Source: Psococerastis gibbosa
Taxonomy: Eukaryota > Arthropoda > Insecta > Psocodea > Psocidae
Length of the DNA stretch: 64,000 nt
Assembly: GCA_963971405.1 (NCBI GenBank)
Contig: OZ020488.1
Span: 3,658,001-3,722,000 of the forward strand
Direction of reading: 5' to 3'
Part shown: piece after piece, positions 4,483 through 42,395 of the stretch
Position numbering within the stretch: position 1 is the stretch's first letter
How the letters are laid out: the number at the start of each line of letters is the position of its first letter
Position numbers and translations under genes: made by a program
The notes under the pieces: generated by a model
Databases searched by the model: none
What the model was told of the DNA's origin: nothing
What the model saw: only the letters and a program-made list of their open reading frames with translations

Positions 4483-4617
4483 GATTTGAAGTATCCAATT
4501 ATTTTAACTACAAGCCTGGTCACATTGTCAACATTGACGAATATTATGAAGAAAACGACGAAATTATGGATAACGATTATTACTCAGATAATCCTATACT
4601 CAACATTACTCAATGAT
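4483..4617 (+). pseudogene. C-terminal fragment, unrecognised acidic protein
   Basis: A short open stretch encodes FEVSNYFNYKPGHIVNIDEY followed by an Asp/Glu-rich end and a stop. It resembles the fragment at 45985-46136, which reads FEIRPNYHTNGGYIIDINDE. The two share the pattern F-E-[VI]..[NP]Y..[KN].G.I[VI][ND]I[DN][ED]. Two diverged copies of the same C-terminus suggest a multicopy gene or mobile element I cannot name. The upstream parts are missing or unreadable. Confidence 0.4.
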
Positions 4618-4985
4618 CTATACTCAACCTTATTCTATTAAAATCGTATACTCTTTTTATATAATGTATGTTATTAAATAAAAAATTTATTCTTTAATAT
4701 GCGATTCCACCTCTGAACTAGTTATGTTTTAAGAGGAGAGAAGTTCGCACAGTCATTGATTTTATGCTTGTCATAATTGTTTATTGAAAAAATCGACCAT
4801 GTATGTTTTTCACAGCTTCTGCAGTCTTTGATTTAACTGCCTCTGCATATCCATATTTTGAAAAAAAAAAATGTTATAACTGTTATATAGATATATTTAT
4901 AACCTTTGTTTATTTTTTATTGTGGAATCATTTCCACCAAGTCTGCCTGCCAGAGGTCTTATAATCCTCTAAGCGTAACAAGTCG
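4618..4985. other. no gene seen
   Basis: AT-rich spacer. A polyadenylation-like AATAAA lies at 4676-4681, just downstream of the acidic fragment. No coding frame is supported. Confidence 0.4.
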
Positions 4986-37335: not shown

Positions 37336-38262
37336 CGAGGTGAGTCTGATAAGTTCGGTAAACTCGGTATTTTGAATGACCCAGCAAAAATGCACGTTGT
37401 TGTTTTAAAACCAGGCGTCCTTGAACACCATAACGGTAGAATATCACCCGCTCAGGGTTACCAACTTAGGGGTTTTCCCCCTAAATTTAGGGATTAAAAA
37501 AGTCGAATGGGATTTTTTTAGGGGTGTTATATTTTTAGGGGTATTTTGAGGGATTTTTTTCAAAATTTCTGATTGTCATTCATTATTTGCTTATTAAAAT
37601 GCCTAAAACTACAGATAAGAAAAAATATCGACAAAAATACTCTAAGGCTTGGGAAACAGATTCAGACTTGAAAGGTAAAGTTATTCTATTTTATTTTTAT
37701 AATTTATAGAAAGGACTAGGATGTTCGCAGTTAGTTGAATGACCACTTAAATGTTTAACTTTGAATTTGAATAGAGAATACGTTATTTTTAACCTCCTGG
37801 TCCTGTTTATAATAAATTACGTTAAACGATATTAAATTTAAAACATTTAATTCAAAATTCATAATCGTTTACCATAGAATTGCCGACGTCGTCGAATTGC
37901 AGCCGTAATTGTTCTTCAATAAAGTTCAAAAAAGGTATTTTCATTTTATTTCGGTAAATAATCTACCACCTCTGTTATAACTACATGCACGTTTGTTGGA
38001 TTTCTGGTGTGAACTTCTATATACATTTACTATTTACTATAAAAAATTATGTGGCATTGGTTTTATCATGTTAAGAGTTATTTTTTCAGGTTTTTAATAA
38101 GTTACTTGGTCTCTGGTGTGGATATGCTGATATTTATACTATAAATTACTTGTTAAATATTGTGTTTTGTTATGATTAATACTTTTCTTACTGTGAATTG
38201 CTGTATCTGCAAAGTTACTCAAGTCATGTATCGTTATTTACAATTTATTCTTTTATTGCAGG

Positions 38263-38537
38263 TTGGTTGGGACCTGACAATACGGATGCTAACTTGGCCT
38301 ATTGTCGCTATTGTCATGCGACTTTAAAAGCTCACAAAAAGGATTTAATTAGTCATGCGAAGACTGACAAACATAAAAAATTTACGCAATGGGAAAAATC
38401 AGCCAAATCAACTACATCGATAACAAAAATCTATAAACCAGAGTTGGCAGAAAGTACGAAAGTTGCCGAATTGAAAATATCTGCCTTTATCGCTGAACAT
38501 TGTTCTTTGTTAACAGTTGATCACTTAATAAGTACCT
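38263..38537 (+). pseudogene. hAT transposase exon 2 (BED finger), second family member
   Basis: GWLGPDNTDANLAYCRYCHA..KAHKKDLISHAKTDKHKK gives the C-x2-C..H-x5-H finger in the same position as in the 7310 exon. It continues SAFIAEHCSLLTVDHL, which matches the start of the other element's main exon (AVFIANHSSTRAIDHL), so here no intron separates the two. The frame is cut by the maT insertion. Confidence 0.75.
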
Positions 38538-38659
38538 AGTCATGCCATAAGTTCTGTCCCTAGTGCATTTTGGCCACCCCTGACGAAATGTCAAGGACAA
38601 TGGTTTGGCCACCCTAGCAATTGCTTACAGTAGTCACGTAGGTAGTGCAATAACATCAG

Positions 38660-39204
38660 TTGCGGTTGATCCGTCGATTTATTATGATGGATTGGGGTGC
38701 TAGCGAAAACCGTGTTACTGTAATGTCGGCATCGGACATTTTCAAAACTCTGAAAAACCTAAAAATAACTCAAAAGTTTGTGTACCGTACCATTAAACGT
38801 TACCGTGAGAACTTTGCTGTTGATGACAGACCAAGATCTGGACGTCCGAGGACTGTAAGAACTTCTCATGCGATTAAAGCCGTGAGGGAGCGAATTCGCA
38901 GAAATCCCCTCCGAAAACAGAAAGTCATGAGCAGGGAACTCGATATGTCCACGCGATCAATATCGAGACTAATCCGTGATGACCTACAGATGAAGGCCTA
39001 CCGTAGATCCACAGGACATCTTCTTACTCCAGCCCTACGAGCCATTAGGAAGGAAAGAGCCAAGGCACTACTAGCGTGGCACGCCGTCCATGGCCACGAA
39101 TGGATACTCTTCACAGATGAGAAAATTTTCACGATCGAGGAGTCCTATAACCGCCAAAATGATAAAGTATACGCACACACCTCCCAGCAAGCCAGAGAAG
39201 TTTA
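38660..39204 (+). CDS. maT transposase, N-terminal part
   Basis: A 183-residue frame. HTH segments are FKTLKNLKITQKFVYRTIKR and MSRELDMSTRSISRLIRDDL, with the linker GRPRTVRTSHAI between them. The first catalytic Asp is in WILFTDEKIFTIEE. The frame reaches YAHTSQQAREVYP and stops where the virus-like segment begins. The matching C-terminal part resumes at about 40113. The Met at 38660 or 38684 could be the start. Confidence 0.85.
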
Positions 39205-40112
39205 TCCTTGAGCGCCGAGATGTCGGACGTCTCTGCGAGGGTATACGCGCTTTTGCGCGACTTAGAGCAATATTTGGTGGCGCCAAGGGCGCAGTATTCA
39301 AATGAGGCGAATTGTTCGCGTGTGTTTTGTGCGCAGAACGGGCTTGACCCAATCGGCACTAGACAGGAAAGGGTAGCCGCCTTTCGTGCTTTTGCATCAA
39401 TGGTGGTTTACGTTGTACGTCTCCAGGGATCAAGGGTTGTGTATCCGAATTCGGTCGGGATTGGTCAGACAAATGAATTGCTTGACCAACTACGTAGGAA
39501 TTATAGAGTGGACACCACATTTTTAAATTTGTTGATGCACTTGGAAAGAACCGGTGGGAATACTATCTCACAGGTCATCGAAGCAACCCTTGAACCATCA
39601 CCTTACCCATTCCTACCGCCCGCGTCTGGCATTTACTACATCTCGCAGAATACTTTTCTGATGTATGTAAATGCCGGCGGCCAGGCTGTAATCAACCTAC
39701 CCCCCACGCTTCGCTTTGCGCGCGTAAATTATCATTTTTTAAATGAGATGTATGGCTCTACGATAACACTCCCTAATATTGATGCTTTCAATATAGGGGC
39801 TGGAAGTATAAGGCTGCAAGCTGCCGTTATTCCTAACGGAGCTATTATCTCAGGTGGTGGCGCGTTTTCACTGCGCGCTCCTGGGATGGGTCGCAGTGCA
39901 TGCGTCGTGCAGTTTAACGACGTTCGTATCGTAGAGCCAGGGGCCGGGTTCCTTGATCTGCTAACGCCCGATAACTGGGCCAACTTGACGGATCGTGACC
40001 CGTTCGCCTATGATATGGCGATAATAGAGGTCATAACAGCATTAAGACTGACTGAGGTTTATGACTTGAGAGCCACCCCTGAAAGAGTGGTTCCCAGAGC
40101 AAAACTGCTCTC
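39205..40112 (+). CDS. virus-like protein segment inside maT (fossil), family unassigned
   Basis: An uninterrupted frame of about 300 codons, higher in GC than its surroundings and unrelated to transposases. It starts MSDVSARVYALLRDLEQYLV at 39220 (the open frame begins at 39208). The first third is helical (RVAAFRAFASMVVYVVRLQG, ELLDQLRRNYRVDTTFLNLL). A strand- and glycine-rich middle follows (GIYYISQNTFLMYVNAGG, IPNGAIISGGGAFSLRAPG), then a final helix (DMAIIEVITALRL). Size and composition recall nucleoproteins or capsids of RNA viruses that are often endogenised in arthropods. I cannot name a family, and a captured host gene is possible. The part present looks whole in frame. Confidence 0.5.
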
Positions 40113-40629
40113 AATTTTGATACACGTTGGATACCACCGAGGACACCACCCGTCTTCAGTGATGGTCTGGTGGGGTGTGTCGTACCAGGGGGTGACTTCC
40201 TTGCATTTTTGCGAAAAAGGGGTGAAAACGGGAGCAAAAGTGTACCAGGCGGATGTGTTAGAAGGTGTAGTGAAGCCCCTGAACACTACCTTGTTCAATG
40301 GACACGATTGGTGTTTCCAGCAAGACTCTGCGCCAGCCCATAAGGCCAAAACCACACAAGAGTGGCTCAGGACACACGTACCGGACTTCATAGCGGCCGA
40401 AAATTGGCCTTCGGGTAGCCCAGACCTCAACCCACTGGACTATGCCTTGTGGTCTGTTTTGGAGGCCACAGCCTTCTCTACTCGTCACCCCAATTTGGAC
40501 AGCCTAAAAAAATCTTTGACGAAAGCAGTCGAGCAGATGCCCATCCAAACCGTGCGTGCCGCCATAGATGCATGGCCCGACCGTCTTCGCGCTTGTGTGG
40601 AAGCTGATGGCGGCCATTTTGAATTGTAA
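40113..40629 (+). CDS. maT transposase, C-terminal part
   Basis: The transposase resumes as GYHRGHHPSSVMVWWGVSYQ, ..GHDWCFQQDSAPAHKAKT (second Asp), SGSPDLNPLDYALWSVLE (third Asp) and RAAIDAWPDRLRACVEADGG. These are textbook landmarks of the catalytic domain. The upstream virus-like frame runs straight into it without a stop, so a read-through fusion ORF of 473 codons exists. This is probably chance. Separation from its N-terminus makes the transposase non-functional. Confidence 0.9.
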
Positions 40630-40746
40630 TGATTTTTTTGAATTGCCAATTAGTTACTTGATTTAATAAAAAAAGAACTAACCCGATATCATCTTTCGTT
40701 TTCTCTTAGCATAGGAAAGTGTTAGGGACAGAAGTTATGGCAGGAC

Positions 40747-41310
40747 TAGGTATACTGCCACAACTAGATCCATCGTCGGACGCTTTAAAGAACCTAAAGC
40801 TTCATCGAACTAAGTGTTCAATGTTGATAAAAAAATGTGCTTGGGCCATCAATGCTGGAAGATCTGATAGAAGAGATCGGAGATTCTCCCTACTCAATAA
40901 TAATTGATGAAAGTACTGATTTATCAACGCTCAAAGTTTTATGCATTATGGTACGTTTTTTTCTCACAAAAAAAGACAAGTTGTAACAACTTTTTACCGA
41001 ATCTTAAAAATAATAAAGTGTGACGCGGAAAGTGTACACCAAGTAATTGTGGATCAATTTAAAAAAGATGGCCTAAAGCTTGAAAATCATATCGGAATCG
41101 GGGTTGATGGAGCTAATGTGATGATTGGAAAGTACAATTCTGTTACTGCTTTATTGAAAAAAGAACTGCCTGATTTGATTGTTGTTAAATGTGTTAGTCA
41201 CTCCTTACATTTATGCGCGGAAAAAGCATCGGAATTACTACCTCGCCAACTTGAGTTTCTTGTTAGAGAAACACATAACTGGTATCATACAGCCCGAAAC
41301 GATTGGCTCC
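40747..41310 (+). pseudogene. hAT transposase core fragments after maT
   Basis: GILPQLDPSSDALKNLKLHR corresponds to the LQNLRLHRTKCAKLI region of the intact hAT. YSIIIDESTDLSTLKVLCIM holds the first Asp. HIGIGVDGANVMIGKYNSVT holds the second, then LIVVKCVSHSLHLCAEKAS, then LEFLVRETHNWYHTA. Frames change between the first and second stretches, and the sequence ends abruptly at about 41310. The fragment is inactive. Confidence 0.8.
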
Positions 41311-41339
41311 ACCTAGTGTGACCATGTCTACCCTCACCG

Positions 41340-42395
41340 ACCACGATAGGAATATTGAAGCACCGAGCTGTTATAAAATTCTTTTCTAAAACCGGAAAAA
41401 ATCCCACAGAAATCCATAATTTGATTTTGCCCGTATACGGTGAACAGTGCCCATCATATAAAACAGTTACTAAGTGGTGTAGGCTGTTTAACCAGGGTAG
41501 AGAGTCCCTGGAGGATGATGCACGTGCTGGACGGCCTGTTACTGCAGTTTCTCCGGAAAATATTGATGCTGTGAGGAAGAAGGTGTTAGAAGATCGACGG
41601 CTCAAGATTTGGCAGATGGCAGAGATCCTAGGGATCAGCAAGGAACGAATCGGGATCATTTTACATTATCATTTGGGGATGTCCAAGGTTTCAGCGCGTT
41701 GGGTTCCTAAAATGTTGACGCCATTTGACAAGGAGCGGCGTGTCGTGACTTCAGAGGCGTTTTTGGAGTTGTTAGAGGAAGAGGGTGACGAACTTTTTAA
41801 TAGAATCATAACTGTTGACGAAACGTACGTCCACCAGTATGATCCCGAATCGAAAAGGGAAAGTATGCAGTGGATTTCAAAGGGGGAAACGGCCCCAAGG
41901 AAGTTCAAAGCTTCAAGGTCGTCTCTGAAGGTCATGATGACAATTTTTTGAGACTCGGAAGGAGTAATTTTTAAGGACGCGCTGCCAAGAGGAACTACAA
42001 TGAATGCCTGTTATTATAGCCAACTCTTGGAAAAGCTACGGGACGAGGTGAAGACCAAGCGGAGGGGGAAACTTAGCCGTGGAATTCTTTTCCTCCAGGA
42101 CAATGCCCCCGTGCACACAGCCCGTATTGCGAAGGCAGCACTCGCCGCGACAGGGTTCCAGGAGCTCGACCACCCTCCCTATAGCCCAGATTTGGCCCCG
42201 TCCGACTATTTCCTATTCAAAAATCTGAAGGCAGAGTTAAGGGGGAGGCGGTTTGAAGGCATCACTGAGATGACGTCAGCTGTGGAGGCCCATTTCGACT
42301 CCAAGGACGGAAATTCTTTTTTAGGGGGTTTAAAATTGTTGGAGCGGAGATGTAGGAAGTGTATTGAGGTAACAGGAGATTATATTGAAAAATAA
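41340..42395 (+). CDS. mariner DD34D transposase
   Basis: The transposase starts near 41355 (LKHRAVIKFFSKTGKNPTEI, upstream residues not clear because of the hAT insertion). HTH segments are YKTVTKWCRLFNQG and IWQMAEILGISKERIGIILH. WVPKMLT is the WVPHEL-type linker. First Asp in IITVDETYVHQYDPESK, second in FLQDNAPVHTA, third in PYSPDLAPSDYFLF at the DD34D spacing. A stop at 41949-41951 interrupts it between the first and second Asp. Downstream the frame is open again to 42395. Otherwise full length for the family (about 345 residues). Confidence 0.9.

Follow-up and report, generated by a model that had tools for sequence, protein, structure and literature searches.

In the window, by which we mean the whole 64,000-nt stretch of the Psococerastis gibbosa genome analysed here, one copy of a maT transposon is interrupted by a 931-bp segment that we read as a molecular fossil left by an infection and not as a novel type of mobile element. 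We consider it likely, if well short of certain, that this insert is an endogenous viral element in which almost the entire coding part of a single RNA-virus segment or messenger is present as DNA, most likely that of the T=13 capsid gene of a hitherto unknown reovirus (the class of orbivirus VP7, seadornavirus VP8 and phytoreovirus P8). The features of the insert and of the element that holds it are as follows.

38533..40752, + strand: maT copy (DD37D, Tc1/mariner superfamily) with terminal inverted repeats and TA at both ends, holding the insert; its sister elements are empty
38533..38562, + strand: left terminal inverted repeat of maT, which matches the far end of the sisters over 30 bp with 29 or 28 identities
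38654..39211, + strand: N-terminal half of the maT transposase, closed by a stop shortly after the insert begins; helix-turn-helix families match below the Pfam cut-off
39203..40133, + strand: the insert, with 931 bp in place of 11 bp of maT, delimited by comparison with empty sister copies
39203..39219, + strand: candidate remnant of a viral 5' untranslated end (probable; relatives reach 25-27 nt before the ATG)
39220..40134, + strand: virus-like coding sequence of about 305 codons; two relatives extend five residues to a shared stop
39220..40629, + strand: continuous frame from the insert ATG into the C-terminal half of the transposase, 469 codons and a stop, without the first catalytic D
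40134..40629, + strand: C-terminal half of the maT transposase, including catalytic D residues two and three
40723..40752, + strand: right terminal inverted repeat of maT

The host element has the inverted repeats and TA target of a maT element, and its DD37D class is apparent by eye in the translation of a sister copy, where D, D and D are found with 37 residues between the second and third. That sister (L017, C15 7.99 Mb) is empty and encodes a 358-codon transposase frame; its left end is missing or unrecognised. In the window copy, the C-terminal part of the transposase matches DDE_3 with an E value of 8.2e-6, at 26.2 bits against a curated cut-off of 28.6 and thus below it. The N-terminal half lies in a frame other than that of the insert, stops at 39209-39211, and carries a 21-bp deletion private to this copy. 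The whole element seems, judging from weak BED zinc-finger and DUF4371/DUF659-like matches at 38180-38539 and 40920-41321 (all below cut-off), to be located inside a broken hAT-like element. A mariner copy at 41322-42395 (Mos1-type HTH and Transposase_1, the frame split by one stop) adjoins the hAT-like remnant.

Across the 409-Mb assembly of 68 contigs, three sister maT copies, on C15, C3 and C19, are uninterrupted at the place where the window copy holds the insert; two sister elements without the insert are L018, of 1313 bp, and L019, of 1303 bp. The maT sequence of the window copy ends at 39202 and restarts at 40134 or 40138, so the target lost 11 bp, or up to 15 bp because one base beside the right junction differs. 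In the sisters the site reads GTT-GTTCCCAGGGT-CCAGCGAGG, and in the window GTT-insert-CCACCGAGG. Neither a target-site duplication nor a poly(A) tract was seen at the insert junctions. The site is therefore occupied in the window and empty in sister sequences, as is expected of an endogenous element. In our judgement, such near-identical empty sister transposons, which mark the insertion site cleanly and limit the age of the insertion, are rarely available for fossils of this kind.

The sisters also date the event. Pairwise, the window copy differs from the three of them at 7 of 1177, 12 of 1281 and 7 of 1271 sites, so that it lies 0.6-0.9% apart from them by substitutions; small deletions bring the identity of the left half to 93-96% in the flank search. 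Six changes in the 1151 columns aligned in four maT copies are private to the window copy, one of them beside the junction. Because the insertion can be no older than the maT copy that carries it, and these copies are less than 1% diverged, the insertion is recent. An earlier note on this DNA had described a foreign open segment between two DD37D transposase halves, which the empty sisters and the frame analysis bear out. It had also proposed a recent arrival, and this stands on the low divergence of maT rather than on the absence of stops from which the note had argued. The note's statement that the segment is richer in GC than its neighbours needs narrowing: at 49.0%, the insert is richer than the DNA around maT (30.0% and 35.5%) but not than maT itself, whose halves have 46.3% and 49.4%.

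The longest frame of the insert, 309 codons, exceeds those of all 2000 mononucleotide shuffles (mean 96, maximum 208). A stop-to-stop frame of 487 codons (39166-40626) spans the insert and continues in frame into the C-terminal half of the transposase, an arrangement that would arise by accident one time in three. Two relatives of the insert elsewhere in the genome (L011 and L012) end at a common stop five residues past the end of the window insert, which implies a full protein of about 310 residues. As read by eye against the L017 translation, two of the catalytic residues, the second and third D, are retained in the fusion frame and the first is missing, which makes an active transposase an unlikely product. 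The insert copy is probably inert as a protein.

A protein search of the whole genome returned seven matches at six loci including the window, and the six other matches are 47-75% identical to the insert. All five other loci hold broken or partial relatives, as listed here.

L011, C3 4.329 Mb: nearly complete, with one stop and a frame change
L012, C3 4.307 Mb: frame-shifted, first codons missing
L013, C19 31.70 Mb: first third
L014, C19 31.34 Mb: first quarter to third
L015, C2 49.12 Mb: short decayed piece

Searches of the whole genome with two of the relatives as query, at E values up to 10, added no new place. The insert is thus not the unique endogenised fragment that the earlier note had offered as one alternative, and the other part of that alternative, a virus-derived segment captured in maT, fits what we found. 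Four of the five relative-bearing loci cluster in two stretches, C3 4.30-4.33 Mb (about 20 kb) and C19 31.34-31.70 Mb (about 350 kb), and such clusters may be piRNA-producing regions. The C19 stretch also includes an empty maT sister at 31.61 Mb. L013 sits among PIF1-helicase and pogo-type transposase frames. At L012 (positions 4550-4906) the relative directly abuts a gag-like frame of a retrotransposon (DUF7041, E 3.4e-4, below the Pfam cut-off), a junction that would fit template switching by a reverse transcriptase.

The divergence among these copies bears on where the donor gene evolved. Compared with one another, they show saturation at synonymous sites (pS 0.73-0.99) and constraint at nonsynonymous sites (pN 0.08-0.35) in all 19 comparisons that cover more than 40 codons. 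Since the carrying maT copy is less than 1% diverged, the synonymous divergence between insert copies cannot postdate the insertion. Saturation combined with constraint, and no close donor found in the assembly, place the evolution of the donor outside this genome and under protein constraint, as is expected for the source of an endogenous viral element. The pattern is best read as what an RNA virus would leave, and it could also stem from a gene of some other organism or from one that the assembly lacks. Searches by sequence and profile found no virus match in Pfam, PHROGs, PDB sequences, phage records or IMG/VR. PDB gave one chance-level match by sequence (E 1.7) and none with a profile or two relatives as query; peptide-pattern scans of bacterial and archaeal genomes, which detect close relatives only, gave no match either. 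Given the lack of matches in phages, IMG/VR, PHROGs and those genomes, we rejected a bacterial or phage origin. Profile and sequence searches of the kind that the earlier note had called for yielded no viral match in these libraries, and the viral reading rests instead on the evolutionary pattern, the fold layout and the segment ends.

Several explanations other than a captured viral gene have to be weighed against these observations. The note had raised the prospect of a cargo-bearing maT family, in which the segment would be carried from place to place by the transposon; the ends and TA of the window element are intact, and a sister copy retains its 358-codon transposase frame. We fetched 58 other maT loci through two flank searches, in which 40 of 85 and 40 of 192 candidates were scored. 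By coordinates, 12 of the 58 are second views, which leaves 46 copies; an overlap test gave the same 12 pairs and also grouped five further near-identical copies at other places. Among the 58 loci fetched from the candidates scored, none had a match to the insert. Both maT halves were present in all of them, with 11-28 bp between the matched ends in 56 and 147 bp in one; the gap in the remaining locus could not be measured. For the 22 copies common to both coordinate lists, the halves were separated by 13-18 bp in every case. The three closest sisters are likewise empty, and the relatives of the insert lie outside maT: the 8.5-9.5 kb stretches around the five relative-bearing loci contained no maT sequence, while the positive control matched. 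We therefore rejected a cargo-bearing family, and transport of the segment by maT is barely credible. Six maT-related copies on six different contigs (L050, L052, L054, L055, L057 and L058) share identical stretches of at least about 1.5 kb, which suggests a very recent burst or duplicated surroundings.

A retrocopied host gene would explain the silence of the virus searches, and it would agree with an intronless frame that was under past constraint. A recent host donor should, however, be present, as the maT host is less than 1% diverged, and no close copy was found in the 409-Mb assembly, the six other matches being 47-75% identical and all broken or partial. The contrast between the divergence of these relatives and that of the maT copy makes a host gene very improbable. 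A different proposal is that the host expresses the viral-transposase fusion and has retained it as a protein of its own, perhaps a capsid-like one that interferes with infection. There are 469 open codons from the insert ATG; against this, the maT copy is too young, at less than 1% divergence, for a test of selection, and the first catalytic D is missing, so that we give this proposal hardly any credence. In a bolder composite, the T=13 capsid gene of a reovirus lineage not yet sampled would have been endogenised again and again in this animal, and the youngest copy, within a maT element whose ends are intact, would make a capsid-transposase fusion that interferes with infection; this strikes us as very improbable.

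Having set these aside, we return to the captured viral gene and to the question of which virus supplied it. An AlphaFold2 model, built from eight rows taken from the same genome, was poor (mean pLDDT 42, pTM 0.37). Within the limits of such a model, the predicted layout consists of helices at residues 3-111, strands at 137-237 and helices at 244-302, an order that we take to be that of the parts of orbivirus VP7. RNA-virus nucleoproteins are typically helical. The predicted centre of the insert protein (from the same poor model) is rich in strands, and no nucleoprotein profile matched. Of the viral nucleoprotein or capsid suggested in the earlier note, the capsid is thus the part that we retain, with a nucleoprotein less likely. 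In a fold search of BFVD, orbivirus VP7 supplied five of the best 50 of 1354 matches (E up to 10), at ranks 5, 9, 18, 24 and 49: Kammavanpettai, a California mosquito pool, Changuinola twice and Heramatsu, aligned over 170-315 columns. These alignments had E values of 3.2e-3 to 2.3e-2, TM-scores of 0.21-0.34 and rmsd of 15-27 A, that is, a bad superposition, and the two best BFVD matches were phage tail proteins. A fold search of PDB placed a glycosidase first and the rice dwarf virus chain 1uf2_C at rank 14 (E 0.041, probability 0.15, 310 columns), directly below a satellite tobacco mosaic virus capsid at rank 13. We take 1uf2_C to be P8, the T13 protein of rice dwarf virus. As a weak control, VP7 was absent from the best 50 of 91 fold matches of an unrelated, mostly helical model. 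The orbivirus VP7 profile (Pfam PF00897) did not match the protein; the Orbi_VP7 and Orbi_VP1 profiles found nothing in the whole genome, and control genomes were equally silent.

The segment ends provide a separate indication. The 17 nt at 39203..39219 are by themselves too short for a similarity beyond chance. The sequences ahead of the ATG in L011 and L014 coincide as far as (G)GTAAAAAT, at 26-27 nt from it, and L013 shares them as far as TAAAAAT, at 25 nt; further upstream the three look unrelated. A 5' limit shared by copies that lie at separate sites is suggestive of a viral RNA terminus, in which case the RNA would start (G)GUAAAAAU. The likeness of L011 and L012 in the 3' untranslated region falls within that of shuffles (score 32 against a shuffle maximum of 45). 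In the available text of PMC4667914, the segments of Mangshi virus (Seadornavirus) start with GUAAAGAWW in the table and GUAAAA in the running text, 7 of the 12 segments have leaders of 23-31 nt, and the T13 protein, 298 aa long, is encoded by a segment of 1122 bp. Against the table consensus, the 5' identity amounts to GUAAA only, with a different sixth base. The T13 segments of Banna virus and of two EHDV isolates are 1119 and 1162 bp long, and neighbour-joining or maximum-likelihood trees of T13 across two genera could not be built, according to the part of PMC9145729 available to us. This failure across genera fits the silence of our sequence searches.

Taken together, the fold layout, the size of the protein and segment, and the 5' limit make a reovirus the probable source; with a model of pLDDT 42 and other folds ranked higher, the family is probable and not proven. 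The main competitor, which we hold to be doubtful and yet far more plausible than a host gene, is an endogenous element from a different RNA virus, with a non-reovirus capsid of helical ends and a beta domain. Birna-, tetra- or toti-like capsids are candidates. It draws on the facts that no sequence match fixes the family and that other folds outrank VP7 in a poor model; moreover, a 649-codon frame lies 2.3 kb from one of the relatives, and more than one virus may have been endogenised. What counts against a different virus is the recurrence of five orbivirus VP7 among the best 50 BFVD matches, one over 315 columns, with rice dwarf virus over 310, and the GTAAA-type limit 25-27 nt before the ATG.

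The 649-codon frame is uninterrupted and lies at C3 4.3248-4.3267 Mb (L011:284-2233), about 2.3 kb from the L011 relative. It has no Pfam, PDB or IMG/VR match. There are 27 further matches to it in the genome, 25 of them in repeated arrays on C20 around 15.39 and 15.74 Mb. Its model, the one that served as the control above, is useless (pLDDT 28) and mostly helical, and we treated mycoreovirus VP5, at rank 41 of the best 50 of 91 weak fold matches (E 3.4), as noise. This frame is possibly a second endogenised viral gene.

As to how the insert arose, a viral RNA would have been reverse-transcribed in the germ line by the enzyme of a retrotransposon, and end joining would then have sealed the cDNA into a break in the DNA of maT. 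Without a duplication or poly(A), priming of the LINE type would not apply. Viral DNA of such a reverse-transcribed kind has been described in infected mosquitoes and insect cells, as stated in the accessible part of PMC5497376. Like other endogenous viral elements, the insert copy may serve as a source for the piRNA pathway.

If the reovirus reading is true, a capsid gene joins what appear, from the sources available in part, to be few described reovirus fossils, and the copies are a record of recurrent infection by a lineage that is missing from the libraries that we searched. The titles and abstract openings that we searched contained no T13-like endogenous element, and we do not claim that such elements are unreported. 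The window copy resembles maT elements (DD37D) in its DD37D spacing, inverted repeats and TA ends, and differs from them by the interruption. The reovirus T=13 capsid proteins (orbivirus VP7, seadornavirus VP8/VP7, phytoreovirus P8) are similar to the insert protein in length, which is about 310 aa as compared with 298 aa for the Mangshi virus protein, and further likenesses are the predicted helix-beta-helix order, the weak fold matches, the putative GUAAA 5' end and the short leader; the insert differs in having no sequence or Pfam match. As far as the available parts of the sources go, Liaoning virus segment 5 in Aedes aegypti (PMC2987831) and the VP5- and VP1-like Reoviridae integrations of mosquitoes (PMC5497376) are, like the insert, single-segment copies of double-stranded RNA viruses in animal genomes. 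Those mosquito elements derive from other genes (VP5 and VP1; PMC2987831, PMC5497376), in contrast to the T13-like gene here, and at most one Reoviridae integration per mosquito species is given in the portion of PMC5497376 at hand, compared with six T13-like loci in the present genome. The same portion of PMC5497376 describes AeBunya1, which is, like the insert, a virus segment within a transposable element, a full-length Pao-Bel; its host is an LTR retrotransposon, whereas the host here is a DNA transposon with empty sister copies.
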